Position numbers and translations under genes: made by a program. DNA of 64,000 nucleotides, from positions 946,263-1,010,262 of the forward strand of contig NZ_ACJN02000003.1 of NCBI RefSeq assembly GCF_000174435.1, written 5' to 3'. Below are positions 44,406 to 61,711 of this stretch, piece by piece; position 1 is the stretch's first letter, and each line of letters starts with the position of its first letter. Origin of the DNA: Desulfonatronospira thiodismutans ASO3-1. Lineage in GTDB: Bacteria > Desulfobacterota > Desulfovibrionia > Desulfovibrionales > Desulfonatronovibrionaceae. The notes under the pieces were generated by a model. It did no database searches, was not told where the DNA came from, and was given only the letters and a program-made list of their open reading frames with translations.

Positions 44406-46490
44406 TTATGCCTTTTCCACCTTTACAAAATGTTCCTGCAGGGCCACTGCACCTCCGGCAGGATCCCAGATGTCCAGGCCGCCTTTCATGAGCCGGTGGT
44501 CGGCAACTCCCTTGTTTCTGGCCCTGGTTTCCGCCGGGACGTCACTTCCGAAGCCGTGGACCATGAATACCGCGTCCGGATGCATAAATTCCGTCACATA
44601 AGCCTTGATCTTGCCTGAATAACCGTTGGAGCCGCTGACCTTGACTAAGTCATTGTTGCTTATGCCCATTTCCGCGGCTTTTTTGTCGTTGATCCAGAGT
44701 TCGTTCTCGGGCATCTGCTCATGCAGGATTGGATTATTCTGGGTATGACCCTGGGTATGTACGCCGCAGCGACCGAAGGTGATCCTGAACCAGCCCTTCT
44801 TGGGAGCCTGTTTGTCCTCATACGGCTTAAGAGAAGGAATGCCTGCCTCTTCCCATTTGGGGGCGATTATTTCAATTTTTCCCGAGGCGGTCTTGAACTT
44901 GAACTGCTCCCTGGGAAAATAGATGGGCTTGTCAGTTAGAGATACCATGCCGGTGGCCTTGAAGTCCTCAGGTTTTACCCCGGTATCCGCAAGCTGGTAG
45001 CGCCAGATGTCTTCGATGGATTCAAAAGCCAGCTTATCCAGACCCATTTTCTGGGACAGGCCGCAGAGTATCTCCCAGTCGGCCCGGGTGTCGTACTTGG
45101 GCGGCAGTGCCCTGTGGCGCACAAAGAAATGCGGCTTAAGGCCGTTTTTAGCGGCTATGATGCTTTCGCGCTCCAGATATGGAGACAAGGGCAGGACCAC
45201 GTCGGAATTCCAGGCCGTGGCTGACCAGGAGAAAGTAACCGATACCATGAGGTCCAGGTTGTCCGTAATCTTCTTCAGGGCCTCGGGGTCGGGAAAGGCC
45301 ATGAATGGATCGTGCCGGTAAGCTATGTAGGCCTTTACCGGATATGGATCCTGCTTTTCTATGGCCTGAAAGCCCAAATGCAAAAGCCCTGGACCCGGAT
45401 CAAAATGTCCATACCTGGTGCCTACCCCGTCAGCCCGCTCATCTTCGGGCTTGGGATAAAGGGATGCCAGGGCCTTGAGGCCCTTGCTGCCGCAGTCCCC
45501 GGGTTTGGCCATGAAGGGCAGGCCGCCCTTGACCCCGATGCTGCCAAGCAATGCATTGATAATATATATGGTCCTGGAGACATAGAAAGAATCGGTATAT
45601 CTTGCGGTATTCCAGCCGGGATGCCAGACTACGGAAGGCATGGCCTTGACCAGGTCCACCACAAAGTCGCGGATCTCCCTGGCCTTGATGCCTGTCTTTT
45701 TCTCGGCCCATTCCGGAGTATAGTCCTGGACAAAATTGCGCAGCTGATCAAAATCCTGCACAAAGCTGTGCACATAGTCTGCATCATAAAGGTTCTTGTT
45801 GATGAGCTCGTTGATGACAGCCAGATTAAAGGCATAATCTGTTCCGGGCCTGATCATGAGAAAACGGTCCGCCTTGCCCGCGGTCTTGGTGGCCCGCACA
45901 TCTATGACCGTGACCTTGCAGCCGTTGTCCACGGCATCCAGAAGGTCGTTGACTTCTTTTACATTGATTGCTTCCAGGATATTGCGTGTTTGCAGCACAA
46001 CATGTTTTGCGTTTTTAAGATCATAAGCCACCCCCTTGCGGCCGTAACCCATGACCGACATGGCCGCGTGCTGCACATTGCGAGCGCAGGAAGCGTCGTG
46101 GTTGCTGTAGTTGGGCGAACCAAGACCGCGTACGAATGCCTGATGCAGATCACGGAAAGGCCCTCCCCGGTCTGACCACAATAAAGAGCGCCCGCCATGC
46201 TCCTGAATTATCCCCCCAAGCTTGTCCGCCACATAATCCAGTGCTTCATCCCAGGATGCCTTGCGCCACTGTCCTTCTCCGCGCTTGCCCGTACGGATCA
46301 GGGGGTGACGGATGCGGTCCGGATCGTTGATAAGCCCGGCACCTGCTCCGCCGCGGGCACACAGGGCGCCCTTGAGGGCAGAGTGGGGATTGCCCTGTAT
46401 GAACTTGAGCTGGTCCCCATGCACTTCCACTTCTATGGGGCACCTGACCGTACACATGCCGCATACACTGTAAACTTTGTTGTCAGTCAT
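44406..46490 (-). CDS. Molybdopterin oxidoreductase, PsrA/PhsA-like, no Tat signal
   Basis: This 694-aa protein belongs to the DMSO-reductase family, nearest in pattern to polysulfide/thiosulfate reductase catalytic subunits. The N-terminal [4Fe-4S] site is VCGMCTVRCPIEVEV with a fourth Cys in ALKGALCARGGAGAG. A Cys in NHDASCARNVQHAA is the likely Mo/W ligand. Further cofactor segments are VIDVRATKTAGKAD, HPGWNTARYTDSF and the C-terminal HTQGHTQNNPILHEQ. AGGAT precedes ATG 46490; the extension to 46640 is not a twin-arginine signal. The protein therefore looks cytoplasmic, unusual for PsrA/PhsA. It is divergent from a NuoI-like gene; substrate not proven. Confidence 0.85.
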   Translation of the reverse strand: MTDNKVYSVCGMCTVRCPIEVEVHGDQLKFIQGNPHSALKGALCARGGAGAGLINDPDRIRHPLIRTGKRGEGQWRKASWDEALDYVADKLGGIIQEHGGRSLLWSDRGGPFRDLHQAFVRGLGSPNYSNHDASCARNVQHAAMSVMGYGRKGVAYDLKNAKHVVLQTRNILEAINVKEVNDLLDAVDNGCKVTVIDVRATKTAGKADRFLMIRPGTDYAFNLAVINELINKNLYDADYVHSFVQDFDQLRNFVQDYTPEWAEKKTGIKAREIRDFVVDLVKAMPSVVWHPGWNTARYTDSFYVSRTIYIINALLGSIGVKGGLPFMAKPGDCGSKGLKALASLYPKPEDERADGVGTRYGHFDPGPGLLHLGFQAIEKQDPYPVKAYIAYRHDPFMAFPDPEALKKITDNLDLMVSVTFSWSATAWNSDVVLPLSPYLERESIIAAKNGLKPHFFVRHRALPPKYDTRADWEILCGLSQKMGLDKLAFESIEDIWRYQLADTGVKPEDFKATGMVSLTDKPIYFPREQFKFKTASGKIEIIAPKWEEAGIPSLKPYEDKQAPKKGWFRITFGRCGVHTQGHTQNNPILHEQMPENELWINDKKAAEMGISNNDLVKVSGSNGYSGKIKAYVTEFMHPDAVFMVHGFGSDVPAETRARNKGVADHRLMKGGLDIWDPAGGAVALQEHFVKVEKA

Positions 46491-46893
46491 ATTATCCTCC
46501 AAGCTTTTTATTGTCAGTAGCAAACACCAGGATTTATGACAAGCAAAAAAGTATTTCGAGAAAAAAAACACATTCTCTCCCATCCAGAACAGCACCAAAG
46601 CCTGATGACAGGTAAAACAACAGCTGATATGGATAAGCATATCCGTAAAAAATGATGTCTAAATAGATATTTTAAATTACAAAACTCATGTGATTATTCA
46701 GAACACGCAGCTTGTACTTTTCAGGACATGCAGACTTGCAAGAAAACTGTTTTACAAAGAAAATGTAATGAGTTATACTGCAAGAACAATATTCCTACAC
46801 AATAAGTATGTTTTTCCTCTGAGGGTACAGGAAGATACTGCATTACATCTGATGATGCACTGCCTTCTGGTACCGCCTGCTAACCTGACAACA
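46491..46893. other. Divergent region between oxidoreductase and NuoI-like genes
   Basis: About 400 AT-rich bases that probably carry divergent promoters. Open frame extends through 46690-46893 upstream of the NuoI-like start, but its translation has no resemblance to the NuoI family and looks non-coding. No operator could be identified. Confidence 0.45.
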
Positions 46894-47523
46894 ATGATGG
46901 AAGCCATGTTTTTCAGCACTATCAGAAAAACTATCAAAGGACTGTGGAGCCTGGGCGTAGGACTCAAGGTCACGTCTGTCAATTTTTTCCGTCCTCCCGT
47001 TACTGTTCATTATCCGCGGCAGGTTGTACCTTCCCTGGAAGGATACCGAGGCCATGTGGAACTGGTTCCATCCGCGGAAGACCCGGGGGCCTCCAGATGC
47101 ATCGGCTGCGGTGCATGCGTCAGAATCTGCCCCGGGGCCTGCATTTCCATCAAGGTCTCTCACAAAAGACCTCACCTTGCTCCAAAAAAGACCGGCAAGC
47201 CTCCTGACCATGACCAGGGGCATTTTCTCATTCCCATGCCCAAAGCCAGGGCCCTGCCGGGGATTGCCAGGCGCAGCCCCACATCTTTCAAGCTGAACTA
47301 CAACTACTGCAGCCTGTGCGGTCTGTGTGTGGAGACCTGTCCAGCCGGGGCACTGGCCTTCTCCAGCAACATCTATCTTGCCGGATACACCCGCAACGAA
47401 TTCAAATACGACCTGCTGGCCAGGCTCGAGTACAGGGCCAGGGATAAAAGCAGGCCGGCTGAAGGAAGCAGAGTTCAGGACAATGGCCGTGATAACCATT
47501 CAGGGGGTCTTCGGTGTTTATAA
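46894..47523 (+). CDS. NuoI-like two-[4Fe-4S] protein with C terminus altered by insertion
   Basis: This 209-aa protein resembles NADH-quinone oxidoreductase subunit I. It has the N-terminal TIKGLWSLGVGLKVTSVNFF and FRPPVTVHYPRQ segments, and two ferredoxin motifs, CIGCGACVRICPGACI and CSLCGLCVETCPAGAL. It stands alone, without other complex I genes, and may shuttle electrons to the divergent molybdopterin enzyme. The open frame starts at 46690, but ATG 46894 (or the next codon) matches NuoI N termini; there is no clear ribosome site. The final codons are encoded by the mobile element at 47492; with the element removed the protein would end DNGRE. Confidence 0.7.
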   Translation: MMEAMFFSTIRKTIKGLWSLGVGLKVTSVNFFRPPVTVHYPRQVVPSLEGYRGHVELVPSAEDPGASRCIGCGACVRICPGACISIKVSHKRPHLAPKKTGKPPDHDQGHFLIPMPKARALPGIARRSPTSFKLNYNYCSLCGLCVETCPAGALAFSSNIYLAGYTRNEFKYDLLARLEYRARDKSRPAEGSRVQDNGRDNHSGGLRCL

Positions 47524-48162: not shown

Positions 48163-48678
48163 ATGAGCAGCTATCTCATCAAGATCAACGGTAAAAGGTG
48201 CATCAGCTGCAAAGCCTGCGAAGTGCACTGCAAAGCCAAAAACAGGGTTCCCGAGGGAGCCAGGCTGGGCCAGCTGGTGACCATCGGCCCGGTCAAGAGA
48301 AAGGAAAAGCCCAGGTATCTGAATCTTTTTCTGCCCTGTTTTCACTGTGAAACCCCCTGGTGCGTGCATGCCTGCCCCACAGGTGCTTTGTACAAGCGGG
48401 ACAAGGACGGCATAGTCATGGTCCAGGAGGAACTTTGCGTGGGCTGCAAGGCCTGCATAATGTCCTGTCCCTGGGATATTCCGCAGTGGGACGAGACCAA
48501 TGGGCGAATCATGAAGTGCGACTACTGCAGCGACCGCATAGACCGGGGAGAGAAACCGGCCTGTGTTACAGCCTGTACTGCCCACGCCCTGAGCTTCATT
48601 GATCCCAACCAGGCTTCGGCCAGAACCAGGGAGAGCTTTGCAAGTCGTGTTCTGTTATCCAGACAGGACAAAAAATAA
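48163..48678 (+). CDS. Four-[4Fe-4S] ferredoxin subunit, PsrB/DmsB-like
   Basis: This 171-aa protein carries sixteen cysteines in the four-cluster pattern of PsrB/PhsB/DmsB electron-transfer subunits: CISCKACEVHC, CFHCETPWCVHAC, CVGCKACIMSCPWDIPQW and CDYCSDRI plus PACVTAC. It should pass electrons between a molybdopterin catalytic subunit and a membrane or soluble partner. No signal peptide is present, which agrees with the cytoplasmic look of the nearby oxidoreductase. TAAGGAGG precedes ATG 48163. It heads a rightward run with a TauE/SafE permease 35 bases downstream. No PsrC-like membrane anchor is present. Confidence 0.88.
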   Translation: MSSYLIKINGKRCISCKACEVHCKAKNRVPEGARLGQLVTIGPVKRKEKPRYLNLFLPCFHCETPWCVHACPTGALYKRDKDGIVMVQEELCVGCKACIMSCPWDIPQWDETNGRIMKCDYCSDRIDRGEKPACVTACTAHALSFIDPNQASARTRESFASRVLLSRQDKK

Positions 48679-48712: not shown

Positions 48713-49900
48713 ATGCACAAAAAATTTTTCCTTGCCTGCCTTTTTTCACTGGCCCTGTTTCTGGCTCTGCAGGGCATGGCTTTTGCGGATGTAGATGTTG
48801 AGGAAATCATCGAAGATCCTCATCTCCTGGAAGAAGCCATCCAGAGTGCCCACGAATCAGGACATCTGGACAAAGACGACCCGGAAGGGTATCTGGGCAT
48901 ACCCGGTGCGCCGCAGATCAATCTGTTTATCGCCTTTATCTGGGCCATCGTGGTTGGCTGGATTTTTTCCACAGTCGGAGCTTTTGGCGGAATTGCCGCA
49001 GGCATAGGTCACATATCCATCTATGGACTGGGGGCCTATGCAGACAAGTTCGAAGGTAAATCTGCAGCCATAAATACCGCTGTTACAGACTCCATCCGGG
49101 TATCCAACCAGTTTATGGTGGGCTTCAGCGCCCTGGTCTCCACCCTCAACTACTGGAAGCTGGGCCGGCTGGTTATTCCGGTGGGCATTGCCCTGGCCAT
49201 AGGCTCCATCCTGGGCAGCTATCTGGTGCCCACCCTGACCGCCGGGCGTATCTCCTTCGAAGACTACATCTCTCTCTTCGGCATCTTTGTTCTGGCCCTG
49301 GGCTGCTGGATGTTCTACCAGACCACCCCCAGGGGACAGAAAAGCAAGAAAAAGGCCAAAGAAGCAGCCCAGGCCTTTGAAGAAACCATGAAACGCAAGA
49401 GAAGCGGCGAAGCCATTGACACTTCCGAGCTCGGGGTGAAAATGACCTCCTTTAACCCCAAAAAGATCAGTTTTGCCTTTTATGGGGTGGAATTCTCTTT
49501 TAACCCCCTGTTCCCCATACTGGGCGGCTTTGTCATCGCAGCCATTGCCGCATTTCTGGGTGTGGGCGGTGGCTTCATGCTGGTGCCCTTTATCACTGCC
49601 GTGGCCGGACTGCCCATGTACCTGGCCGCAGGGACTTCGGCCCTGGCCGTGCTCGTGGGCATGATCACCGCTATCCTGAGCTACCTGGCTGCAGGCGTGC
49701 TGGTTCACTGGTCTCTTATCGGGACTCAGCTGGTGGGCATATTCATCGGCTCCATGATAGGACCGCGCACTTCGCAGTATATTCCGGAAAAGGTCCTCAC
49801 CAGGATATTCATCGTCCTGGCCTTTTACGTGGGCATCAACTACATCATCATGGGCATCACCGGCACCCAGATCCATGAATTCCTGGCCGGTGCCGGCTGA
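48713..49900 (+). CDS. TauE/SafE-family permease
   Basis: This 395-aa membrane protein starts with a hydrophobic leader (MHKKFFLACLFSLALFLALQ...AFADVDVEE), likely a signal peptide, followed by an acidic periplasmic stretch of about 45 residues, then eight or so transmembrane segments in two halves. The glycine-rich AAIAAFLGVGGGFMLVPFI and family-type LGSYLVPTLTAGRI are TauE/SafE signatures. Members export sulfite, sulfoacetate and related anions. A long cytoplasmic Lys-rich loop (about residues 205-250) divides the halves. AGGAGG precedes the start. Position after a PsrB-like ferredoxin suggests export of a sulfur oxyanion. Confidence 0.88.
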   Translation: MHKKFFLACLFSLALFLALQGMAFADVDVEEIIEDPHLLEEAIQSAHESGHLDKDDPEGYLGIPGAPQINLFIAFIWAIVVGWIFSTVGAFGGIAAGIGHISIYGLGAYADKFEGKSAAINTAVTDSIRVSNQFMVGFSALVSTLNYWKLGRLVIPVGIALAIGSILGSYLVPTLTAGRISFEDYISLFGIFVLALGCWMFYQTTPRGQKSKKKAKEAAQAFEETMKRKRSGEAIDTSELGVKMTSFNPKKISFAFYGVEFSFNPLFPILGGFVIAAIAAFLGVGGGFMLVPFITAVAGLPMYLAAGTSALAVLVGMITAILSYLAAGVLVHWSLIGTQLVGIFIGSMIGPRTSQYIPEKVLTRIFIVLAFYVGINYIIMGITGTQIHEFLAGAG

Positions 49901-49944
49901 TTGACCAGGCCCTAAACCTGCAGTCTAAAGTGACTTGACAATCC

Positions 49945-49975
49945 AGGGCGGCTTTAACCGGGTTAAAGCCGCCCT
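49945..49975 (+). terminator. Perfect 15-bp-arm hairpin, probable terminator or attenuator
   Basis: AGGGCGGCTTTAACC (49945-49959) and its exact inverse (49961-49975) form a strong hairpin followed by gcttgcTTTTTG. It lies 45 bases after the permease stop and about 50 bases before the next start, so it may end or reduce transcription into the downstream genes. Confidence 0.7.
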
Positions 49976-50027
49976 GCTTGCTTTTTGCCGCTGCTTCTGC
50001 GATAGTTTTTCAAACAACGGATACCTT

Positions 50028-50654
50028 ATGAACTGGTGGGATCACTTGATAATCATGCTGGACCTGGTGCTCATCGCCCCCTACAGGTGGTTTGAAAACC
50101 CGGTCAACGGCTTCTTCTTCGGCACTTTTGTCCTCTGCCTTTGGTGTGTGTTCGCCGGGGAAATAACTTTCCGCATCGGATCCTGGATCAACCGCAACCA
50201 TATCCGACGGTTCCGGTCCAACATGGTCAGAATGCACAACCTCTCGGTCAAGGCGCTTCTGCTCAAGGACAAGGAAAACTACCGGGCTTGCAACAAGGAA
50301 GCCAACGAGGCCTTTGGCAAATACTTCTTCAATATGCTCACCATGGGGGCAGCCGTTCTATGGCCGGTCCCCTTTGCCCTGGGCTGGATGAATACCCGGT
50401 TCGGCCACATCGAGTTTGCACTGCTTTTCCCTCTGCCTGTTCTGGGCCAGAGCGTGGGCTTTGCCGCGGTTCTCATCCCCATGTATATCCTGTGCCGCAT
50501 ATTCTGGGCGCAAATCAAAAAGAAAATGCCGGATACACCGGCTGAGCCCGGTCTAAAGCCCGGTGAAACAGGGCAGGAAGAAATGATAAGTATGCACGAA
50601 GTGGAAAAAGAGGGCAGGATACCCGAAAGATTCTGGGACAGCAGCAAATCATAA
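50028..50654 (+). CDS. Membrane protein of unknown function
   Basis: This 208-aa protein has three or four hydrophobic segments: about residues 7-19, 24-43 (FFFGTFVLCLWCVFAGEITF), 103-120 (FFNMLTMGAAVLWPVPFALG) and 133-160 (LLFPLPVLGQSVGFAAVLIP). Between the second and third is a charged region, INRNHIRRFRSNMVRMHNLS, ending in a short segment like a helical hairpin. The C-terminal tail is acidic and Pro-rich. No family was recognised with certainty. ATG 50028 was chosen because the open frame upstream (to 49935) is encoded by the terminator hairpin. It lies between the TauE-like and FmdE-fusion genes. Confidence 0.65.
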   Translation: MNWWDHLIIMLDLVLIAPYRWFENPVNGFFFGTFVLCLWCVFAGEITFRIGSWINRNHIRRFRSNMVRMHNLSVKALLLKDKENYRACNKEANEAFGKYFFNMLTMGAAVLWPVPFALGWMNTRFGHIEFALLFPLPVLGQSVGFAAVLIPMYILCRIFWAQIKKKMPDTPAEPGLKPGETGQEEMISMHEVEKEGRIPERFWDSSKS

Positions 50655-50689: not shown

Positions 50690-52306
50690 ATGCGTATCGG
50701 CGGTTATGAGTTCGAAGAATTTCTGGAGGTGGTTCGAAATTTTCACGGCAGCCCGGCCCCGGGTATAATAGTAGGCGGGATCATGGTGGATATGGCCAGG
50801 GATGCCCTGCCCCCGGACACCATCTTTGACGCCGTGGTGGAAACCCCCAAGTGCCTGCCCGATGCGGTTCAGCTCCTGACTTTATGCACAGTGGGCAACA
50901 GCTGGCTGAAAATAGTCAACCTGGGACGCTACGCCCTGACCTTCTACGACAAGTATACAGGACAGGGGGTGCGGGTATTCGTGGATCCTGTAAAACTTGA
51001 GAAATGGGACGAAATAAAAGGCTGGATTCTGAAACTCAAGCCCAAACAGGAACAGGATTTTGAACGGCTCATGCATCAGATAAGAACTGCCGGCCGGGAC
51101 ATACTTACCGCCAGGCCCATGCAGGTGGACATGGATCAGCTTACCCGCAAAAAAATGTCCAGCATTGCAGTCTGCCCCATATGCAATGAGCCATATCCTG
51201 CAGATGACGGCGCGGCCTGCAGGGGATGCCACGGGGACAGCCCCTATATATCAGAAGGCGAGGATATGCAGGAGCCGGAACTGGAGCAGGTGTCCGTACA
51301 TGAGGCCGTGGGGCAGAAGGCCGCGCACGATATGACCGGCATAGAGCCCGGCAAATCCAAGGGCGTGGTCATCAAACGCGGACAGGAAATAAATTTCTCT
51401 GATATCTGCCGCCTGCAGCAGATCGGCAGGCAGAACCTCTACACCGAAGCTGCGCCCAGCGATAAGGACTGGGTACATGAGGACGAGGCAGCCGAAAGTT
51501 TTGCCCGGGCCATGGCCGGTGAAGGAGTGGAGCTTGGCCTGCCTCCCAGAGAAGGCCGGGTCAATCTCAAGGCGGGCCGGGACGGCCTGCTTGTGGCCCA
51601 GAAAGACAATCTTCTGGCTTTCAACCTGGTGCCCCAGGTCATGTGCGCCAGCCGTCAGAGCTATATGCTGGTGAAAAAAGGTTCTGTCATCGCAGGTACC
51701 AGGGCCATACCCCTGTACCTTCCCAGATCTAACTTCAATAAGGCCATGCAGGTACTGAACCAGGGGCCGCTTTTCAAAGTCCTGCCGCTTATGCAAAAAA
51801 AGGTGGGGCTGCTCATCACCGGGACAGAGGTTTTCGAGGGTATTATCCAGGACCGCTTCGAGCCCATCATAAAGGACAAGGTGCAAAAACTTGGCTCGGA
51901 GGTAAACAGGTCTATAATCTGCCCAGATGACAAAGAAGAGATAAAATCCTGCCTTACCCGGCTTCTGGATTCCGGCTGCGATATGATCATAACCACGGCC
52001 GGACTTTCTGTTGACCCTGACGATGTCACCCGCAAAGCCATTCAGGAGGCAGGGGCCAGTGAAATGCTCTACGGAGCCCCCATCCTGCCCGGAGCCATGA
52101 CCATGCTCTGCTGGATTGATTCTGTACCGGTCATTGGAGTGCCGGCCTGTGCACTTTATTTCAAGACCACCAGCTTTGATCTGCTGCTGCCGAGGCTTCT
52201 GGCCGGCTTAAAAATAACCCGTCTGGACCTGGCCCAGATGGCGGACGGATCCCTGTGCCTGGCCTGCAAGTCCTGCACATATCCCAAGTGTCCCTTTGGG
52301 AAGTAG
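50690..52306 (+). CDS. FmdE-domain / molybdopterin-binding (MoCF) fusion protein
   Basis: This 538-aa protein joins an N-terminal FmdE domain (about residues 5-150: FHGSPAPGIIVGGIMVDMA, TLCTVGNSWLKIVNLGRYAL), a four-Cys zinc-ribbon-like site (CPICNEPYPADDGAACRGC), a MoeA-like middle (about 220-350) and a MoCF molybdopterin-binding domain (about 365-500: KKVGLLITGTEVFEGIIQDR, DMIITTAGLSVDPDDVTRKA, LPGAMTMLCWIDSVPVIGVP). It ends in a second Cys cluster (CLACKSCTYPKCPFGK). FmdE accompanies tungsten/molybdenum formylmethanofuran dehydrogenases and formate dehydrogenases; the fusion may deliver or mature a molybdopterin cofactor, perhaps for the nearby oxidoreductase. Confidence 0.8.
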   Translation: MRIGGYEFEEFLEVVRNFHGSPAPGIIVGGIMVDMARDALPPDTIFDAVVETPKCLPDAVQLLTLCTVGNSWLKIVNLGRYALTFYDKYTGQGVRVFVDPVKLEKWDEIKGWILKLKPKQEQDFERLMHQIRTAGRDILTARPMQVDMDQLTRKKMSSIAVCPICNEPYPADDGAACRGCHGDSPYISEGEDMQEPELEQVSVHEAVGQKAAHDMTGIEPGKSKGVVIKRGQEINFSDICRLQQIGRQNLYTEAAPSDKDWVHEDEAAESFARAMAGEGVELGLPPREGRVNLKAGRDGLLVAQKDNLLAFNLVPQVMCASRQSYMLVKKGSVIAGTRAIPLYLPRSNFNKAMQVLNQGPLFKVLPLMQKKVGLLITGTEVFEGIIQDRFEPIIKDKVQKLGSEVNRSIICPDDKEEIKSCLTRLLDSGCDMIITTAGLSVDPDDVTRKAIQEAGASEMLYGAPILPGAMTMLCWIDSVPVIGVPACALYFKTTSFDLLLPRLLAGLKITRLDLAQMADGSLCLACKSCTYPKCPFGK

Positions 52307-53031: not shown

Positions 53032-53955
53032 ATGCACAAAAAAAGCGTACTTTGCCTGATGCTACTTGTCCTGTCGCTGGGTTTTCTTTTTTCCTGCGGC
53101 GAGGACGAAACCCCGGTCAAGGTGAGCCTGGAAAAACGCGAGGAGATCTCCATCAGGCCCCAGGCCGCCGCACTGACTTATGCCTATCTTCCCCAGTACT
53201 CCCATACGGAATCCTTTCAGCGGCACAACCGTCTGGTGGAGTACCTGTCTCAGGAAACCGGGCTGTCCATCCGCCAGGTGTTTCCGGATACTTTCGACGA
53301 TCATATAAATAAATTCGGCCAGGGAAAAATAGACATTTCCTTTTCCAACCCCTTTGTCTACGCCAAGCTGGCCGGTCGCTTCGGCGGAGAAGCCTTCACC
53401 CGCATTATTGAAGAGGACGGGAGGGCCGAGTTCCGGGGCAAGATTATAGCCCGCAGGGATAACCAGGAAATACAGACCTTAGAAGACTGCAAGGGCACCT
53501 CCTGGGTTGCAGTGGATCCTTCCTCTGCCGGGGGATACCTCTTTGTCCTGGGCCACTTTGTGGAACACGAAATAACCCTTGATGATTTTGCAGAAGTTGT
53601 ATTTGCAGGAGGCAGGCAGGAAAACGTGATCCTCGGAGTTTATTCCGGGCTGCATGATATCGGTGCCATCCGGGAAGGCTCCCTGAGCGTGGTGGAAGAC
53701 AAGATCGATACCCGTCAAATCAAAGTCATTGATCACAGCAGGTGGTATCCGGGGTGGGTCTACGCACACAGCCCAAGGCTTACAGATGAAACTGTTGCAA
53801 AAATTAAAGAGGCCATGCTCAAACTGGATTACGACGATCCCGAACATAGGGACATACTGGAAGCGGCGCGTTTCAAAGGTTTTGTCCCTTCAAGTGATGA
53901 GGATTTCGATCCCATCCGGGATCTTAGCAAAAAGGTAGGGCTGGAGCTTGACTGA
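53032..53955 (+). CDS. PhnD-like substrate-binding lipoprotein
   Basis: This 307-aa periplasmic-binding protein is of the PhnD/PtxB (phosphate/phosphite/phosphonate-binding) fold. It starts MHKKSVLCLMLLVLSLGFLFSC, a lipoprotein signal with lipobox FLFS-C. Family segments include YAYLPQYSHTESFQRHNRLV, IDISFSNPFVYAKLA, WVAVDPSSAGGYLFVLGHF, VFAGGRQENVILGVYSGLHD and the later TRQIKVIDHSRWYPGWVYA. Family members bind phosphonate, phosphite or related anions or act as sensor inputs. No ABC transporter is adjacent; the next gene is a sensor kinase that overlaps its end, so it is probably a ligand-sensing partner. ATG 53032 (AAAGG upstream) was chosen over TTG 53008. Confidence 0.82.
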   Translation: MHKKSVLCLMLLVLSLGFLFSCGEDETPVKVSLEKREEISIRPQAAALTYAYLPQYSHTESFQRHNRLVEYLSQETGLSIRQVFPDTFDDHINKFGQGKIDISFSNPFVYAKLAGRFGGEAFTRIIEEDGRAEFRGKIIARRDNQEIQTLEDCKGTSWVAVDPSSAGGYLFVLGHFVEHEITLDDFAEVVFAGGRQENVILGVYSGLHDIGAIREGSLSVVEDKIDTRQIKVIDHSRWYPGWVYAHSPRLTDETVAKIKEAMLKLDYDDPEHRDILEAARFKGFVPSSDEDFDPIRDLSKKVGLELD

Positions 53956-56029
53956 CAGGTTGAAGAGCTTTCTTTTCCGGCTCAGGTTCAGGACCAAGAT
54001 CACCCTGGGCATGGCGGCCATGCTGATCTTAAGCTGCGTTATAATCGGGCTGACCCTGTCCAACATGGCCTCCACCGCCCTTCTGGAAGAGGGCAAAAAG
54101 CGGGGCAGCGCCCTTAGCTCCGGTCTGGCCTTCCGTCTGGCCGAACCCATACTGGCCACGGATTTCCTGCAGATGAAAAACCTCATCGACAACGTTCACA
54201 CCCAGTATGAAGACGTGGTATACGTCTTCTTGATTGACACCGAGGGTAACGTCTTGTCCCATACCTTTACCGGAGGATTTCCCACCGACCTGCTCCAGGT
54301 GAATATGGACCCCTCAGACCCTCAGCCTCTGCTTTTGTCCACGGAAAAAGGCACCATATACGACTGCGCTTCTCCTGTCCTTCTCGGAGACAGGAACCTG
54401 GGCACGGTGCGGCTGGGTCTGTCCAGGGACCACCTGGAGATTCTAATCCAGCGCCAGCGCTGGACCGCTCTTCTGACCACCCTGGGGGTGCTCACCCTGG
54501 GCCTGGTGCTTTCATCCTGGTTCGCCACCACTGTCACCAGACGTCTGAACAAGCTGCGCTGGTCCGCTGAAGAGGTGGTACAGGGCAACCTGGACATCCA
54601 GACCAGCTCAGAGCCTCGCAGGCATTGCTGGGAAATAATGCAGTGCGGCAAACAGGAGTGCCCCGCCTACGCAGACACAAGACGGCGCTGCTGGTATATC
54701 CCGGAAACCCTGTGCGAGGACTGCCAGAACATAGGCCACAGGCAAAAGATTGAAAACTGCCGCAAATGCAGAGTATACAGACAACTGGTAGGCGATGAGA
54801 TCCAGGACCTGTCCGAGGCCTTTGACGTCATGGCCCTGACTGTAAAAAATCACATCAACGAACTGATTGAGCGGGAAAAAACCATTGTCCAGCAGCAGGG
54901 GCTTCTCAAAACAATAATGAACGTCACCCCGGACTTTATCACCCTGCAGGACAGAAATCTCAAGTATCAGTTTGCCAGCAAGGCCTTTTGCGACTATTTC
55001 GATCTCAAAGAAGATGACATCCTGGGCAGGACGGACTTTGAAATCTTTCCGGAAGAACAGGCAGACAGCAACTACCACGAGGACCGCCAGATTCTGTCCA
55101 CAGGCAGGCCCCTGTCCAAGGAGGTGACCCTGAGCAGAAAAGGGCGGGAAGTATGGATGCACGTACTCAAAGTCCCTGTTTACGACCAGGAAAAAAACAT
55201 TATCGGACTGTTGCTCACCGCCCGGGATATAACCATGCTCAAGAAGTATCAGGAGCAGCTCATCCAGTCCCAGAAAATGGAGGACCTGGGTCGCCTGGCC
55301 GGAGGGGTGGCCCACGAGATCAACACCCCCCTGGGGATTATCCTGGGCTATACCCAGCTGCTTCTGGAAGAGGTGGAAAATGATGAGTGGGCAGAGGACT
55401 TAAAGACCATAGAAAAGCAGACCAAGATCTGCCGCAAAATAGTTGCCGACCTTCTGGGCTTTTCCAGATATTCACAGTCCACCTCCCAGCCTGTGGACAT
55501 GAACAGGTCCCTGGAAGAAGTCATCAAGCTGGTGGAGCATGTCCTGTCCCTGAGCCATATAAGGATCTATAAATCTTTGGACCCCAATATTCCTCCTTTT
55601 GTCGGCGATCACGAACGCCTGAAGCAGGTCTGGCTCAACCTCATAAACAATGCTGCAGACGCCATAGGCCAGGACGGAGTTATATACGTCAAATCCAAGC
55701 TTTGCGCCCACAGGCAGAGAATCATAATCAGCATAGCTGATACCGGCGCAGGAATAGAAGAAGAGTCCCTGAGCAAGATCTTCGATCCCTTCTTCACCAC
55801 CAAGAGCGTGGGCAAAGGCACCGGGCTTGGCCTGTCTGTGTCCTTCGGCATTATCAAGGACCATGGCGGGGATATATCGGCGCTTAGCCCCCCGCCTGTG
55901 GAATACCTGCCCCGGGATTTTCCCAGATCACCGAGTTACGGCCCGGGTACAGTATTTATCGTAGAGCTGCCCCTGGAAGGAAAAACCCTTGAAAAGGAGA
56001 ACGAAGATGGCGGTCATTGCAGTACTTGA
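53948..56029 (+). CDS. Membrane sensor histidine kinase with Cys-rich linker
   Basis: This 693-aa kinase has TM1 (about residues 18-38), a periplasmic domain (about 39-175), TM2 (about 176-197), a HAMP segment, a cysteine-rich linker (about 225-285: CWEIMQCGKQECPAY, CWYIPETLCEDCQ, CRKCRVYRQL; the two-CW type) then PAS (about 315-435), HisKA (LAGGVAHEINTPLGIILGY) and ATPase (LINNAADAIGQDG, GTGLGLSVSFGI) domains. It starts at TTG 53948 inside the end of the PhnD-like gene, so translation is coupled. The lipoprotein is probably its input, and the linker probably binds a metal or [Fe-S] cluster; both are inferences. Confidence 0.88.
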   Translation: MTDRLKSFLFRLRFRTKITLGMAAMLILSCVIIGLTLSNMASTALLEEGKKRGSALSSGLAFRLAEPILATDFLQMKNLIDNVHTQYEDVVYVFLIDTEGNVLSHTFTGGFPTDLLQVNMDPSDPQPLLLSTEKGTIYDCASPVLLGDRNLGTVRLGLSRDHLEILIQRQRWTALLTTLGVLTLGLVLSSWFATTVTRRLNKLRWSAEEVVQGNLDIQTSSEPRRHCWEIMQCGKQECPAYADTRRRCWYIPETLCEDCQNIGHRQKIENCRKCRVYRQLVGDEIQDLSEAFDVMALTVKNHINELIEREKTIVQQQGLLKTIMNVTPDFITLQDRNLKYQFASKAFCDYFDLKEDDILGRTDFEIFPEEQADSNYHEDRQILSTGRPLSKEVTLSRKGREVWMHVLKVPVYDQEKNIIGLLLTARDITMLKKYQEQLIQSQKMEDLGRLAGGVAHEINTPLGIILGYTQLLLEEVENDEWAEDLKTIEKQTKICRKIVADLLGFSRYSQSTSQPVDMNRSLEEVIKLVEHVLSLSHIRIYKSLDPNIPPFVGDHERLKQVWLNLINNAADAIGQDGVIYVKSKLCAHRQRIIISIADTGAGIEEESLSKIFDPFFTTKSVGKGTGLGLSVSFGIIKDHGGDISALSPPPVEYLPRDFPRSPSYGPGTVFIVELPLEGKTLEKENEDGGHCST

Positions 56030-56384
56030 CGACGTCCAGGACGCCACCATTCTGGTGCAGAGGATTCTTGGACGCAAAGGACATACAGTGCATCCCTTCA
56101 CCGAGGAGGACGATTTTTTCGCCCATCTCAGGGAAAACCACGTGGACCTGGCCATACTGGACATCAAGCTCAAAAAGATGAGCGGGGTGGACGTTCTGGA
56201 AGAAGCCAAAAAGATAACTCCCGGTCTCAGGGTGCTCATGCTCACGGGATATCCCACCCTGGAAACCGCCCAGAGGGCTCTGCAGCTGGGAGCGGACGAG
56301 TACCTGGTCAAGCCCATAGACAAGCACGAACTCGAGGAAAAGGTGGCCCAGGTCCTGGCCGATGAGGCAAAGGGGCCGGGCTGA
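56007..56384 (+). CDS. Single-domain response regulator
   Basis: This 125-aa receiver-only protein has the acidic pocket VIAVLDDVQDATILVQR, phospho-acceptor Asp in LAILDIKLKKMSGVDVLE, Thr in VLMLTGYPTLETAQRAL and Lys in YLVKPIDKHE. It should receive phosphate from the kinase at 53948, whose end it overlaps by 23 bases. AAGGAG precedes ATG 56007. Its stop overlaps the next start (TGATG), so it may act directly on or with the PEP-synthase-like protein. There is no output domain. Confidence 0.9.
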   Translation: MAVIAVLDDVQDATILVQRILGRKGHTVHPFTEEDDFFAHLRENHVDLAILDIKLKKMSGVDVLEEAKKITPGLRVLMLTGYPTLETAQRALQLGADEYLVKPIDKHELEEKVAQVLADEAKGPG

Positions 56385-58777
56385 TGTGGCTTACCCAGCT
56401 CCTTGGCTACTGGTCCAGGCAGGTCTTTGCCCCCGGGGCCCAGCTACGCCGAAAATACCAGTACTTCAGGGACCTGCTGGCCCAGGACAGGCACTGCCTG
56501 GAAAAAATGGCCGAAATCGAGGAAATCCATTACCGCGGCCTGCACTGTGATTATGCCCGGGTGGCCAGGCTGTGCAGAGAGCTCCTGCGGGACGTGGACA
56601 TGCTGGTCAAGAGCCTGGTGGCCCTGAATCCGCTTCGCTACAGGGTGCTCAAGGATTACAAAAAAAAAGTCTCCTTTTACGTGGAGCTTGCTCTCGACGT
56701 GCAGTCAGGCCCGGATGAGCGCCCCTGGTTTCTAAACCTGGACTCACCGCACGCCAGCCAGGAGCTTCTGGGAGGCAAGGCCCACAACCTGGCCCTGATC
56801 AGCAAAAAAGGCTTTCCTGTTCCCCGGGGCTTTTGCATCACCACCCGGGCCTTCAATCACTTTTTAAACGCAAACAATCTGCGCCCCCGCATAAACGAAA
56901 TCCTGGGGAACATCTGCCTGGACTCGGCAGACCTGGAAGAATACTCCAGGCAGCTGCAACAGCTTGTCCTGGATGCAGAAATCCCCCAGGACCTGTACCT
57001 GGCCCTCCAGGACAGGCTCCAGGAAATGCCTCAAGGAAGACTGGCCTTTCGTTCCAGCGCCTTTGGAGAGGACAGTGAGCTAAGCTTCGCCGGGCAGTAC
57101 GAAAGCCTTTTAAACGTGGACCGTGAAAACTGGGTCCAGGCCTACAAGGAAGTCCTGGCCGGAAAATACTCCCCCCGGGCCTTGAGCTACCGCATAAGAG
57201 CCGGTTTCCCCGACGAGCTCCTGTCCATGGCCGTGCTGGTGCTGGAAATGCTGCCGGCCCGGGAAAGCGGGGTGATCTACACCTCAGATGTGAATCATCC
57301 AGAACATATGGGCATCTACACTGTTTCCGGGCTGGGAGACAAGCTGGTGGGCGGGGAAGCCAGGGCCAGGGAATATTTCCTGGAAAAAGACAAAGAGCCT
57401 GCCCCCTCCAGTGATCATCCAGCCTATCTGCCAGACCTGCACCGCTTTGCCCTGGAGCTTGAAAATTATTTTGAATTTCCCCAGGACATCGAGTGGGTAG
57501 CAGACCAGCAGGACCGAGTCATCCTGGTCCAGACCCGTCCTTTTCACAGTGCCAGCGAAGGGCAAAAAGGTTTGGAACCTGACCTGCCGGTCTTGTGCAA
57601 AGGCCAGTGGGCCTCTCCGGGCATGGCCCAGGGCCCGGTTTTCAGGCTGCGCTCCCGGGAGAACATTTCCCAGATTCCCAAAGATGTCATCGTAGTTACT
57701 CCAGGCCTCTATCCGGAACTGACAGCGGTTCTGGACAGGATAAGCGCAATTATAGCCCTGGAAGGCAGTGCGGCCAGTCACCTGGCCACTATAGCCAGGG
57801 AAGAGGCAGTCCCGGCGGTTATCAATGTGGATAAAGACATGCCGCAGTGGGAAGACGGCCTCTGGGTTACAGTGGACGGTTATCGCGGCACTGTACACGA
57901 GGGACGGTCCCAGGCTGCACAGTCAGCTCCCACCCAGAGGCAGACCTGGATGGGCGAAAAGATGCGCTCAGTGCTTAAAAGCATCTCCACCCTGAACCTG
58001 AAAGACGCCCAGTCAGAAGATTTTATCCCCCAGAACTGCCGCTCCGTGCATGATATCATCAGGTTCACCCATGAAATGGGGGTCCGCGAAATGTTCTCCC
58101 TGTCCGGGTCCAGGGGCAAAGGCCTGGGCAGCTCCAGAATCCTTGAGCTGGAGATTCCTATGTCCTTTCGTGTCCTGGACCTGGAAGAGGGGCTGCACCC
58201 TTCAGCGGAAAAACAGGAGCGCATCACCCTGGACCAGGTGGCCAGCAAACCCTTTCAGGCACTGTTTCAGGGCTTGACCTGGAAAAGCATCAAGTGGGAT
58301 CACAGCACCTGGCATTTCGACTGGCAGGAATTCGACCGAATGAGCGCAGGCATCTTCGACCCGGCCAAGTCCGCTGCCCTCAGCAGCTATGCCCTGGTGG
58401 CCAGGGATTACATGCATGCCCAGATCCGCTTTGGTTACCATTTTGCAGTGGTGGACTCCCTCATGAGTTCTAACAGGGATCAGAACTACGCCCAGTTCAG
58501 CTTCAAGGGAGGAGGAGCCCGCGAAGAGCAGAAGATATTAAGGCTTGAGGCAATCAAAATCGTCCTGGAACAATTCGGCTTTACCTGCTTTATCAAGGGA
58601 GATATGCTGAGCGCTGAAACAGCCCGCGAGGACGAGCAGGCTATCTGGCGGTCCATGCTGGTACTGGGCTACCTCCTGGGCAGGACCAGGCTTCTGGACA
58701 TGAGCATGCACAGGCTGGATGTAAACGACCTGGCCAGGCAAATAATAGAGGAAATCGATGCAGCTTTGGCCCTTTAG
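56384..58777 (+). CDS. PEP-synthase-like phosphotransfer protein lacking the PEP/pyruvate barrel
   Basis: This 797-aa protein has an N-terminal helical region (about residues 1-120), a PPDK/PEP-synthase ATP-grasp domain (about 125-395: LLGGKAHNLALISKKGFPVP, RLAFRSSAFGEDSELSFAGQ, YSPRALSYRI, VEW-type IEWVADQ, VILVQTRPF) and a phospho-His mobile domain (about 410-505: LEGSAASHLATIAREEAVPA, catalytic His in SHLA). In place of the usual TIM-barrel, about 290 unrecognised residues follow. Such proteins are seen in dikinase-type enzymes that phosphorylate other substrates. It starts in the stop of the receiver gene and overlaps the phosphatase gene by 20 bases. Confidence 0.8.
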   Translation: MWLTQLLGYWSRQVFAPGAQLRRKYQYFRDLLAQDRHCLEKMAEIEEIHYRGLHCDYARVARLCRELLRDVDMLVKSLVALNPLRYRVLKDYKKKVSFYVELALDVQSGPDERPWFLNLDSPHASQELLGGKAHNLALISKKGFPVPRGFCITTRAFNHFLNANNLRPRINEILGNICLDSADLEEYSRQLQQLVLDAEIPQDLYLALQDRLQEMPQGRLAFRSSAFGEDSELSFAGQYESLLNVDRENWVQAYKEVLAGKYSPRALSYRIRAGFPDELLSMAVLVLEMLPARESGVIYTSDVNHPEHMGIYTVSGLGDKLVGGEARAREYFLEKDKEPAPSSDHPAYLPDLHRFALELENYFEFPQDIEWVADQQDRVILVQTRPFHSASEGQKGLEPDLPVLCKGQWASPGMAQGPVFRLRSRENISQIPKDVIVVTPGLYPELTAVLDRISAIIALEGSAASHLATIAREEAVPAVINVDKDMPQWEDGLWVTVDGYRGTVHEGRSQAAQSAPTQRQTWMGEKMRSVLKSISTLNLKDAQSEDFIPQNCRSVHDIIRFTHEMGVREMFSLSGSRGKGLGSSRILELEIPMSFRVLDLEEGLHPSAEKQERITLDQVASKPFQALFQGLTWKSIKWDHSTWHFDWQEFDRMSAGIFDPAKSAALSSYALVARDYMHAQIRFGYHFAVVDSLMSSNRDQNYAQFSFKGGGAREEQKILRLEAIKIVLEQFGFTCFIKGDMLSAETAREDEQAIWRSMLVLGYLLGRTRLLDMSMHRLDVNDLARQIIEEIDAALAL

Positions 58778-59816
58778 AAAAAAACAAAAAAAAAGCAGCT
58801 TGGTAAGCTGGGTTACGCCCTACCTGGCGGTAGGCCCTGCACCCATGTCCCACGCCCACCTGCAGCATCTGAAGCAGGCCGGGATTGACGCCATCCTGAA
58901 CCTGTGCGCCGAGTTCCCGGACCTGCCGGAAATCGAACGCCGGGCCGGCTTTGATGTTTACTACCTGCCTGTGGAGGACGAGGAAACCCCGGACATGGAA
59001 ACCATGGACAACGCCCTGGAATGGATGGACGAATCCATTTACTTAGGCAAAAAAGTCCTGGTACACTGCCGCCACGGCATCGGCCGCACCGGCACCCTCA
59101 CCGCGGCTTACCTCCTGCGCAAGGGCCTGACTTCCAGAAAGGTAAACAAACTGCTAAATCCCCTGCGCTCCCAGCCGGCCAACTACAATCAGTGGAGCCT
59201 GCTCAGGCAGTACGGGCGTCTCCAGGGCCGGCTACAGATCCGTGAGCCCAGCCTGGAACAAAAAAACATTGTGGATCTCACCCCTTTCTTCAAGGACCTG
59301 GAGGTCCTGCTAAACAGAGTCGAGATAAACCTGGAGGGGAGGCGTCTGTGCGGCAGAGAACATATCCTGTGCTGCTCACTGGACGTCCGGGTGAGCTTAG
59401 TGGAGGCGGTTTACATCTCCCACAAGATAAACACCGTTTTAACCCGGGAAAGCAGGCAGGAGCTCATCCGCAAGGCCTGTGGAACCAACGGGACCGGAGA
59501 GGGAGATGAGCCCCTGGAATGTTCCCTGTGCCCCCTGAACCAGAACCGCAAGTGCTCTTTCTTCCACCACCGCCCCCTGGCCTGCCGCCTCTTCGATTAC
59601 AGCGACCTGGGATCAAAAGAATATGCTGATATAATGGATCAGGTAGGCCAGCTCTCCCGCAACCTTTTTCTGGCCTTTGGAGGACAGTTTCTGCAGCAGG
59701 ACATAAATTTTGACTTGACCCGGGTCATCTCCGGAAAGTATGTCCAGGACTTTTTCCATATCCTCATGCAATGTGCTGAGGGAAACAACCGGATTTCACC
59801 TGAAAAAGAGCTCTGA
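58758..59816 (+). CDS. Dual-specificity phosphatase fused to YkgJ-type Cys-cluster domain
   Basis: This 352-aa protein has an N-terminal dual-specificity phosphatase (about residues 15-150). The catalytic P-loop is VLVHCRHGIGRTGTLTAAYL (H-C-x5-R with Gly and Thr), with the general acid probably in VEDEETPDM. The C-terminal half (about 180-350) carries cysteines of the CxxCxxCC/YkgJ kind: ILCCSLDV, CSLCPLNQNRKCSFFHHRPL and ACRLFDY, probably a metal or [Fe-S] site. The fusion suggests redox- or metal-gated phosphatase activity. It overlaps the end of the PEP-synthase-like gene by 20 bases, so the two are likely coupled in translation and function. Confidence 0.85.
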   Translation: MQLWPFRKKQKKSSLVSWVTPYLAVGPAPMSHAHLQHLKQAGIDAILNLCAEFPDLPEIERRAGFDVYYLPVEDEETPDMETMDNALEWMDESIYLGKKVLVHCRHGIGRTGTLTAAYLLRKGLTSRKVNKLLNPLRSQPANYNQWSLLRQYGRLQGRLQIREPSLEQKNIVDLTPFFKDLEVLLNRVEINLEGRRLCGREHILCCSLDVRVSLVEAVYISHKINTVLTRESRQELIRKACGTNGTGEGDEPLECSLCPLNQNRKCSFFHHRPLACRLFDYSDLGSKEYADIMDQVGQLSRNLFLAFGGQFLQQDINFDLTRVISGKYVQDFFHILMQCAEGNNRISPEKEL

Positions 59817-59842
59817 ACACACAAGACAAAGTATTGCCGTAA

Positions 59843-60745
59843 ATGACCCTGGACACCCTGCACACCTCGGCCATGCTCTTTTTGAGCATTGTTTTCGAGT
59901 CCGCCCCGTTTATTCTCCTGGGAGCGCTCTTTTCCTCTCTGGTACTGGTATTTATCCCCGCGGACTTCTTCAGAAGAAAGCTGCCCCGAAACCCGGTACT
60001 TTCCCTGCCTCCGGCCCTGGCCCTGAGCGCGGTTTTTCCGGTGTGCGAGTGCGCCATAATCCCCGTGGTGCGCGGACTGGTGCGCAAGGGCATGCCCATA
60101 AGTGCAGGCACAGTGTTCCTCGTGGCCGCCCCCATTTTAAACCCGGTGGTCCTGGCCTCTACATTTTATGCCTTCAGGTTCAACCTGGACGTAGTTGTGC
60201 TCAGGTTTGTCCTGGCTGCTGCGGCAGCCCTTATTGTGGGCTTTATTGTCTACCTGGCCTTAGAATCAGGCGGCCGTCGCCCCTTTGCCAGGGATCTCCC
60301 CATGGCTGGAGAGACACACTCCAGGCCCTCTTTCTTCAGTCCCGGCACCTGGAAAAGGGTGCTGGATCACAGCATTGACGAATTTTTCACCATCGGCAAA
60401 TATTTCATCCTGGGGGCCGGGGTGGCCTCGCTTTTTCAAACCTATATGAGCCAGCAGGCGGTCATGGCCTTTACCGAATCCGCTTTTATCGCCCCCATGG
60501 TCATGATGCTCCTGGGATACGTGCTCTCGCTTTGCTCCACTGCGGATGCCTTTGTGGCCGCATCCTTCGCCGGCACCTTCACTCCCATGTCCATCGTGGC
60601 ATTCCTGGTGTTCGGACCCATGCTGGACATTAAAAACACGGCCATGCTCCTGGGATACTTTCCCCTGCGCTTCGTTATTTTATTCATTGCCGCGGCAGCC
60701 GCCACTGTTTATACACTGGTTGTAACCATGCAGTTTCTGTTGTAA
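59843..60745 (+). CDS. UPF0718/ArsP-type permease
   Basis: This 300-aa membrane protein has about eight hydrophobic segments and the hallmark FPVCECAIIPVVRGLVRKGM (about residues 61-80), a conserved cysteine-containing motif of the UPF0718 permease family. A second half has EFFTIGKYFILGAGVASLF and LSLCSTADAFVAASFAGTFT. Family members include ArsP organoarsenical exporters and B. subtilis YcgR, which is paired with YcgQ (TIGR03943), as here. The transported species is unknown. It lies 26 bases after the phosphatase gene. Confidence 0.85.
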   Translation: MTLDTLHTSAMLFLSIVFESAPFILLGALFSSLVLVFIPADFFRRKLPRNPVLSLPPALALSAVFPVCECAIIPVVRGLVRKGMPISAGTVFLVAAPILNPVVLASTFYAFRFNLDVVVLRFVLAAAAALIVGFIVYLALESGGRRPFARDLPMAGETHSRPSFFSPGTWKRVLDHSIDEFFTIGKYFILGAGVASLFQTYMSQQAVMAFTESAFIAPMVMMLLGYVLSLCSTADAFVAASFAGTFTPMSIVAFLVFGPMLDIKNTAMLLGYFPLRFVILFIAAAAATVYTLVVTMQFLL

Positions 60746-60754
60746 AAATAAGCC

Positions 60755-61711
60755 ATGCTCAAGACAATAATCCTTTTCGCCCTGGCCATCCTGCAGGTCA
60801 AACTCATATATACCGGGGACATCCTGTACTACCTGTCCCCCAAGATGCTGCCCTTTTTCTACTTCTCCACCACTGTATTTCTGCTGCTGGCGGCTTACAG
60901 GGCCATGCTCATCCTGGCGGAATCAAGCGGTCTGGAAACCACCTCCCAGGCCTGCGACTGCTGCGCCCACGACGAGGATGCCTCGAAGTTTTCCAGGACC
61001 GCCATGTATATCCTCTTCTGCCTGCCCCTTTTGACCGGCTTTCTGGTCCCGCCCAAGCTTTTGGACAGCTCTCTGGTGGACAAAAAAGGCATAATCTACC
61101 GGGAAGTTGCCTCAACCCCTTCTGATCAGCTCCCTTCAGAGACAAGGCAGCAGTACACGGATCAGCCGGGGGAAATTGACCATGAATGGTGGGAAGAATA
61201 CGAGTTTGAAACTCAAGAGCAAAACGTGCAGGAGGAAGAACAGCAGGCCCTGCGCGACGAACTGGGCATCTGGTACGATGAGGACTACTATAGGGACCTG
61301 GCTGACAGGCTCATTGATGGTGATAAAATCGTGGTCAGCGATTCAGGGCACCTGGATGTCATGCTGGTCATCGCCGCTTACCAGGAAGAATTCCAGGGCC
61401 GGGAAATAGAACTTACCGGATTTGTCTACCGCGACGATCACATGAGCAGGGACGAAGTCGCCCTGACCAGGACAGCCATTACCTGCTGTCTGGCGGATGC
61501 GACATTCTACGGCACCCTGATCCGCGGTGAAGACCTGCACCGCCTGGAACGCGACCAGTGGATAACCGTAAAAGGCGAAATCGACCTGGCCCGGGTCCAG
61601 GGACAAAACATGATCATGATCAACGCCAGGCAGGTCCAGGAGATCGACCCGCCGGATTCACCCTACGTCTACCCTTATCTCTATCAACAATACAACCCGG
61701 AGGCGCAGTGA
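60755..61711 (+). CDS. TIGR03943-family permease-associated protein (YcgQ-like)
   Basis: This 318-aa protein has three or four hydrophobic segments in the first 110 residues (LKTIILFALAILQVKLIYTG, FYFSTTVFLLLAAYRAMLI, MYILFCLPLLTGFLVPPKLL) and a CDCCAHDED motif between them. A long acidic region (about 125-190) precedes the conserved soluble domain (about 195-310: EIELTGFVYRDDHMSRDEVA, LTRTAITCCLADA, WITVKGEIDLAR). This is the pattern of the TIGR03943 family, always paired with a UPF0718 permease, as at 59843. It ends the seven-gene operon. Confidence 0.88.
   Translation: MLKTIILFALAILQVKLIYTGDILYYLSPKMLPFFYFSTTVFLLLAAYRAMLILAESSGLETTSQACDCCAHDEDASKFSRTAMYILFCLPLLTGFLVPPKLLDSSLVDKKGIIYREVASTPSDQLPSETRQQYTDQPGEIDHEWWEEYEFETQEQNVQEEEQQALRDELGIWYDEDYYRDLADRLIDGDKIVVSDSGHLDVMLVIAAYQEEFQGREIELTGFVYRDDHMSRDEVALTRTAITCCLADATFYGTLIRGEDLHRLERDQWITVKGEIDLARVQGQNMIMINARQVQEIDPPDSPYVYPYLYQQYNPEAQ

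Follow-up and report, generated by a model that had tools for sequence, protein, structure and literature searches.

A probable Desulfonatronospira counterpart of the Desulfovibrio nitrate-sensitivity cluster, with a dikinase/phosphatase pair as the possible output of a lone receiver

Which genes of this locus of Desulfonatronospira thiodismutans ASO3-1 belong together, and what might they do? The whole stretch analyzed (64,000 nucleotides of contig NZ_ACJN02000003.1, hereafter referred to as the window) carries seven closely packed genes, encoding a PhnD-like lipoprotein (SBP), a histidine kinase (HK), a lone receiver (RR), a dikinase resembling phosphoenolpyruvate (PEP) synthase (PEPS), a dual-specificity phosphatase (DSP), an ArsP_1-family permease (ArsP) and a TIGR03943 protein, which an initial annotation, made from the sequence alone, had read as one operon. 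All seven open reading frames are present on the + strand, their domain assignments stand (Table 1), and the overlaps (SBP/HK, 8 bp, 53948-53955; HK/RR, 23 bp, 56007-56029; RR/PEPS, 1 bp, 56384; PEPS/DSP, 20 bp, 58758-58777) and gaps (DSP/ArsP, 26 bp; ArsP/TIGR03943, 9 bp) were reproduced exactly. The same annotation knew of no described system of this composition; this was wrong, because Korte et al. (2014; PMC4001038) described one, with mutants. Our literature search returned no other description of the cluster, which goes unmentioned in the sulfur-disproportionation literature searched. The cluster is a real, conserved system that, as a gene cluster, has already been described. We put at roughly 0.6 the probability that the first five genes, together with the upstream genes for a TauE/SafE-family transporter (TauE) and a small membrane protein (P9), correspond in Desulfonatronospira to the nitrate cluster and constitute an oxyanion sensor controlling TauE through the receiver and the dikinase/phosphatase pair.

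The published clusters, DVU0251-0245 of Desulfovibrio vulgaris and Dde_0597-0605 of D. alaskensis, cause nitrate sensitivity, according to transposon fitness data (PMC4001038). The domains encoded in the window match the composition given in Table 3 of that paper (TauE, a hypothetical protein, a PtxB-like protein, a histidine kinase, a receiver, a PPDK-like protein and a DSP), and the gene order is the same, with an FmdE-like gene inserted. Transposon mutants of DVU0246, DVU0247, DVU0250 and DVU0251 (dikinase, receiver, P9 and transporter, respectively) grew unhindered at 100 mM nitrate, and the DVU0245 (phosphatase) mutant was still nitrate-sensitive (PMC4001038), as would be expected if DSP opposed the dikinase. 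Disruption of the cluster in D. alaskensis G20 caused mild sickness on thiosulfate, according to unpublished data to which PMC4001038 refers. Korte et al. proposed a leaky thiosulfate transporter, and the view that putative thiosulfate transporters underlie nitrate resistance is repeated in PMC9723548, which cites their study and related work.

For the analysis of conservation, PEPS homologues were gathered from further genomes, including GTDB genomes, and the window genes were mapped around each by tblastn, giving 112 distinct loci. DSP lay directly 3' of PEPS in 93 of the 100 loci with enough sequence, and the order SBP-HK-RR-PEPS was found in 41 of the 93 with enough upstream sequence; this gene order is therefore not due to chance. 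The core, consisting of the PhnD-like lipoprotein, the histidine kinase, the lone receiver, the PEP-synthase-like dikinase and the dual-specificity phosphatase, is an ordered unit across Desulfobacterota and in one Nitrospirota metagenome-assembled genome (MAG). Hosts of the 112 loci include Pseudodesulfovibrio, Solidesulfovibrio, Halodesulfovibrio, Humidesulfovibrio, Desulfopila, Desulfogranum, Desulfocapsa-type MAGs and a Nitrospiraceae MAG. Some Desulfobulbales and Desulfobacterales retain PEPS-DSP alone, and an incomplete dikinase gene from a Desulfonatronospira MAG is 100% identical to the window PEPS over its 422 residues. ArsP and the TIGR03943 protein are rare beside the core (three and two loci, respectively) and lie behind it only in the window and in two further members of its family; the seven genes were therefore rejected as an evolutionary unit. 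In the neighborhood comparison by which the seven-gene operon was to stand or fall, the order of genes 1-5 recurred elsewhere and that of genes 6 and 7 did not. The conserved set reaches upstream, beyond the start of the interval originally annotated, and TauE-P9-SBP-HK-RR-PEPS-DSP is contiguous in L180, L182 and L184.

Co-occurrence was assessed in 110 genomes of the window's order with at least 90% completeness, PEPS being counted at a strict threshold. DSP was present in 68, RR in 71, SBP in 72 and PEPS in 60 of these genomes; 67 of the 68 with DSP also had RR, and the same number had SBP. Mismatches between DSP and RR were confined to two genera, each containing both genes, and the two genes therefore share the same 22 of 31 genera. 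The parts are nearly all-or-none even where the operon has been broken up: the sensor and dikinase modules lie far apart in four genomes, with every part still kept. Such co-retention of separated modules is stronger evidence of a functional link than operon position. These statistics, called for by the initial annotation, tie the output-less receiver to the phosphotransfer/phosphatase pair, a link further supported by the protein fusion described below.

Partners that recur more regularly than ArsP and the TIGR03943 protein lie upstream, outside the interval originally annotated: TauE, P9, a PhsA-like molybdoenzyme and its DmsB-like Fe-S protein. TauE lies at most 6 kb from the SBP gene in 40 of 69 genomes, and P9 is found beside the core in 27 of the 112 loci. 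The suggestion that a permease is the effector holds to the extent that a permease is the likely effector, but it is not ArsP: the conserved permease is TauE. Of 57 genomes, 37 have the PhsA-like molybdoenzyme linked to TauE, at times at a site away from the signaling genes. Among solved chains, 2vpw, deposited as a thiosulfate reductase, is nearest to this enzyme, which is termed PhsA-like only, its score against the PhsA thiosulfate reductase model (NF012032; 492.5 bits) not reaching the equivalog cutoff of 694. None of the orthologues with a readable N-terminus showed a Tat signal, and the enzyme is therefore probably cytoplasmic. Three loci from Desulfobulbales carry, just upstream of PEPS-DSP, a different TauE (c12, with an extra periplasmic domain), related to that of the window (hhalign probability 100), and another small membrane protein (c13), the partner of this other TauE type and weakly related to P9 (probability 72), of which it is a distant relative. 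In four Desulfocapsa-type loci PEPS-DSP lies near a similar HK-RR pair, and three of these also have a TorD-fused molybdoenzyme (c17).

PEPS (structure model pLDDT 85.6) comprises a helical N-terminus (residues 1-110), an ATP-grasp domain (113-395), a phospho-His domain (400-510, with His466) and a C-terminal domain (538-797). The residues required of a PEP synthase or PPDK for ATP-grasp and phospho-His catalysis (GGK132, R223, E370, Q383/R385 and H466) are conserved and align to those of PEP synthases. There was no Pfam match beyond residue 502, sequence alignments to PDB entries end near residue 545, and the isolated C-terminal domain, in which H556, D557, R560, H563 and E564 are invariant, had no convincing solved fold (Foldseek best E=0.04; VIA-align best Z 5.7), which does not imply that the fold is novel. 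In a PEPS paralogue (L096:5371-8499), the C-terminal tail is weakly lectin/3-keto-disaccharide-hydrolase-like (E=0.002, below the cutoff), a possible carbohydrate hint. DSP has the signature HCRHGIGRTG, with H103, C104, G107, G109 and R110 invariant in 20 orthologues, as are Cys206, Cys258, Cys266 and Cys276 of its C-terminal domain. PEPS and DSP occur as a single 1259-amino-acid protein in one locus (L027:361-4137), which argues strongly that both act on the same thing.

That thing need not be a transport protein. PEPS and DSP might make and unmake a small phosphorylated molecule, whether metabolite or messenger, with the receiver gating flux and the C-terminal domain binding a small hydroxylated substrate in the manner of rifampin phosphotransferase or HpeI-type dikinases. 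For the ATP-grasp/His part, the nearest relatives of solved structure are indeed PEP synthase, rifampin phosphotransferase and HpeI, and the third domain, with its five invariant residues, is not a PEP/pyruvate barrel. We nevertheless consider this explanation rather unlikely, as no metabolic gene recurs beside PEPS-DSP, the recurrent neighbors being regulators, a transporter and a redox enzyme, and as the mutant phenotype is anion sensitivity (PMC4001038). It is far less probable that PEPS is a classical PEP synthase/PPDK under two-component control, coupling carbon flow to the respiration of oxyanions and regulated by DSP as its phosphatase. The PPDK_N and mobile-His domains, with their catalytic residues, would fit such an enzyme, but the C-terminal PEP/pyruvate-binding domain is missing from PEPS by sequence, its place being taken by a domain with no Pfam family, and an ordinary PEP synthase was rejected on this ground. 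The threonine two residues before the catalytic histidine, the target of known regulators of PPDK and PEP synthase, is moreover mostly alanine in PEPS orthologues.

On the sensor side, the solved structures nearest to SBP are those of PtxB and ArrX, and it also resembles PhnD and AioX. As in AioX/ArrX-type systems, this PhnD-family protein is encoded beside an HK and an RR, and the idea that a PhnD-type oxyanion sensor provides the input to a two-component pair is supported. The DPSSAGG motif is conserved, and the lipobox Cys22 is the sole conserved cysteine. AioX binds arsenite via Cys106, which is conserved in the AioX subfamily (PMC5908839); inspection of the window SBP revealed no cysteine anywhere in the mature protein after the lipobox, and thus no counterpart of this binding-site residue, leaving a metal or arsenic response unsupported. 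An arsenic/metal response operon, with SBP as an AioX/ArrX-type sensor and ArsP/TIGR03943 as the efflux effector, is accordingly very improbable despite the structural kinship of SBP and the short gaps before the two downstream genes, given this lack of cysteine, the presence of ArsP/TIGR03943 behind the core in only three genomes and a published phenotype specific to nitrate (PMC4001038). His456 and the kinase motifs of HK are conserved in 80 sequences, and D8, D9, D52, T80 and K102 of RR in 78. Between its HAMP and PAS domains, at residues ~228-282, HK has a Cys-rich insert (CWEIMQCGKQECPAY...CRKCRVY), which resembles a site for a metal or an Fe-S cluster and may provide an additional redox input.

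In the preferred reading, an oxyanion sensor controlling TauE, the lipoprotein SBP would bind a periplasmic oxyanion, most likely thiosulfate or a related sulfur oxyanion, and would signal via the membrane HK to the lone RR. Phosphorylated RR would act on PEPS by protein contact; PEPS would move phosphate from ATP onto His466 and then to an acceptor held by its C-terminal domain, from which DSP would remove it. The phosphorylated state would turn on, or be required for, uptake through TauE and P9, supplying the cytoplasmic PhsA-like molybdoenzyme, which would split thiosulfate; nitrate would be toxic to Desulfovibrio because it leaks in by the TauE route. We infer the contact between receiver and PEPS, the target that is phosphorylated, the direct control of TauE and the ligand, among whose candidates thiosulfate ranks first. 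More tentatively, the output of the lone receiver may be a dikinase of the PPDK type that works against a dual-specificity phosphatase, with reversible phosphorylation of a transporter or small effector gating oxyanion entry, an arrangement that would be widespread in Desulfobacterota. We know of no precedent for a dikinase/phosphatase pair as a two-component output.

Several points weigh against the preferred reading. The Fisher p-values for co-occurrence (~1e-23 for DSP/RR and ~1e-22 for DSP/SBP) are inflated by shared ancestry. SBP and RR occur without DSP in three genomes, and PEPS-DSP occurs without this SBP-HK at many loci, especially in Desulfobulbales. The longer PEPS proteins examined (L096 and L027) included no receiver-PEPS fusion, no systematic search having been made. 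The correspondence between the window genes and the DVU and Dde genes is drawn from annotation, order and roughly similar gene sizes. The D. alaskensis DSP mutant also gained fitness (2.08; PMC4001038), a result that misfits a simple on/off pair. As to thiosulfate, members of the TauE family transport several sulfur anions and can function as exporters.

The features of the locus are listed in Table 1. The true start of P9 is probably an ATG near 50028 rather than the listed 49935. Between TauE and P9 lies a terminator-like element (49944-49976), a stem-loop of 15 pairs with a T-rich tail behind it, which overlaps the listed start of the P9 reading frame; P9 may therefore be transcribed separately or by read-through. 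A 222-bp tandem repeat in three copies (the third partial), 97% identical, lies just 3' of the TIGR03943 gene (61812-62315).

Table 1. Coordinates of the core genes and neighboring features in the window
Feature	Coordinates	Strand	Evidence or remark
PhsA-like molybdopterin oxidoreductase, without Tat signal	44406..46493	-	PhsA model 492.5 bits vs cutoff 694
NuoI-like 4Fe-4S protein	46690..47523	+	Also in L179, L182
DmsB-like 4Fe-4S electron-transfer protein, molybdoenzyme partner	48163..48678	+	Recurs beside core
TauE/SafE-family anion transporter, likely effector (Dde_0598/DVU0251 type)	48713..49900	+	PF01925 E=7e-28
P9, small membrane protein, TauE partner (Dde_0600/DVU0250 type)	49935..50654	+	Very weak EMC3-like signal
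FmdE-like protein with MoCF (molybdopterin-binding) domain	50690..52306	+	PF02663 + PF00994; 4/112 loci
SBP, PhnD/PtxB-like periplasmic lipoprotein, presumed oxyanion sensor (Dde_0601/DVU0249 type)	53032..53955	+	PF12974 E=1e-59
HK, membrane sensor kinase, Cache-HAMP-(Cys-rich)-PAS-HisKA-HATPase (Dde_0602 type)	53948..56029	+	Domain matches (Cache/PAS/HisKA/HATPase)
RR, single-domain receiver without output domain (Dde_0603/DVU0247 type)	56007..56384	+	PF00072 (Response_reg)
PEPS, PEP-synthase/PPDK-like dikinase (Dde_0604/DVU0246 type)	56384..58777	+	PPDK_N + PEP-utilizers
DSP, dual-specificity/PTP-type phosphatase, Cys-rich C-terminal domain (Dde_0605/DVU0245 type)	58758..59816	+	PF22784/PF00782
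ArsP_1-family permease, lineage-specific neighbor outside conserved core	59843..60745	+	PF03773
TIGR03943/DUF1980 partner of ArsP-type permease, lineage-specific neighbor	60755..61711	+	TIGR03943 168.7 bits, clearing the family cutoff of 88.8

The cluster decides whether nitrate, which is used against souring by sulfate reducers, enters and inhibits these cells. To its description we add that it is widely conserved, that its parts co-occur tightly, that dikinase and phosphatase are naturally fused in one protein and that it is linked to a thiosulfate-reductase-like enzyme, and we offer a specific, testable model in which a sulfur-oxyanion sensor would gate TauE through a dikinase/phosphatase switch.

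Elements of the system have parallels elsewhere. In plants, the PPDK-type alpha-glucan water dikinase is opposed by a SEX4-type dual-specificity phosphatase on one substrate. The pairing of PEPS and DSP resembles this by analogy only; PEPS, a protein with no shown link to carbohydrate, has different accessory domains and a two-component input. PEPS shares the ATP-grasp and swiveling phospho-His architecture of the rifampin phosphotransferase, PEP synthase and HpeI dikinases, whereas its third domain is unrelated by sequence and lacks a confident match among solved structures. AioXSR and ArrXSR (PMC5908839) likewise combine a binding protein of the PhnD family with an adjacent sensor kinase and response regulator and control a molybdoenzyme system, but the window SBP lacks the binding cysteine of the AioX subfamily, its receiver has no output domain, and dikinase and phosphatase genes are added. 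The closest counterpart is the Desulfovibrio nitrate cluster. It differs in that the window has an FmdE-like gene and a 725-bp gap between P9 and SBP, in that ArsP/TIGR03943 follow DSP in the window, and in that the D. vulgaris HK is annotated as a pseudogene; the seven gene types, TauE-P9-SBP-HK-RR-PEPS-DSP, are shared and stand in identical order.

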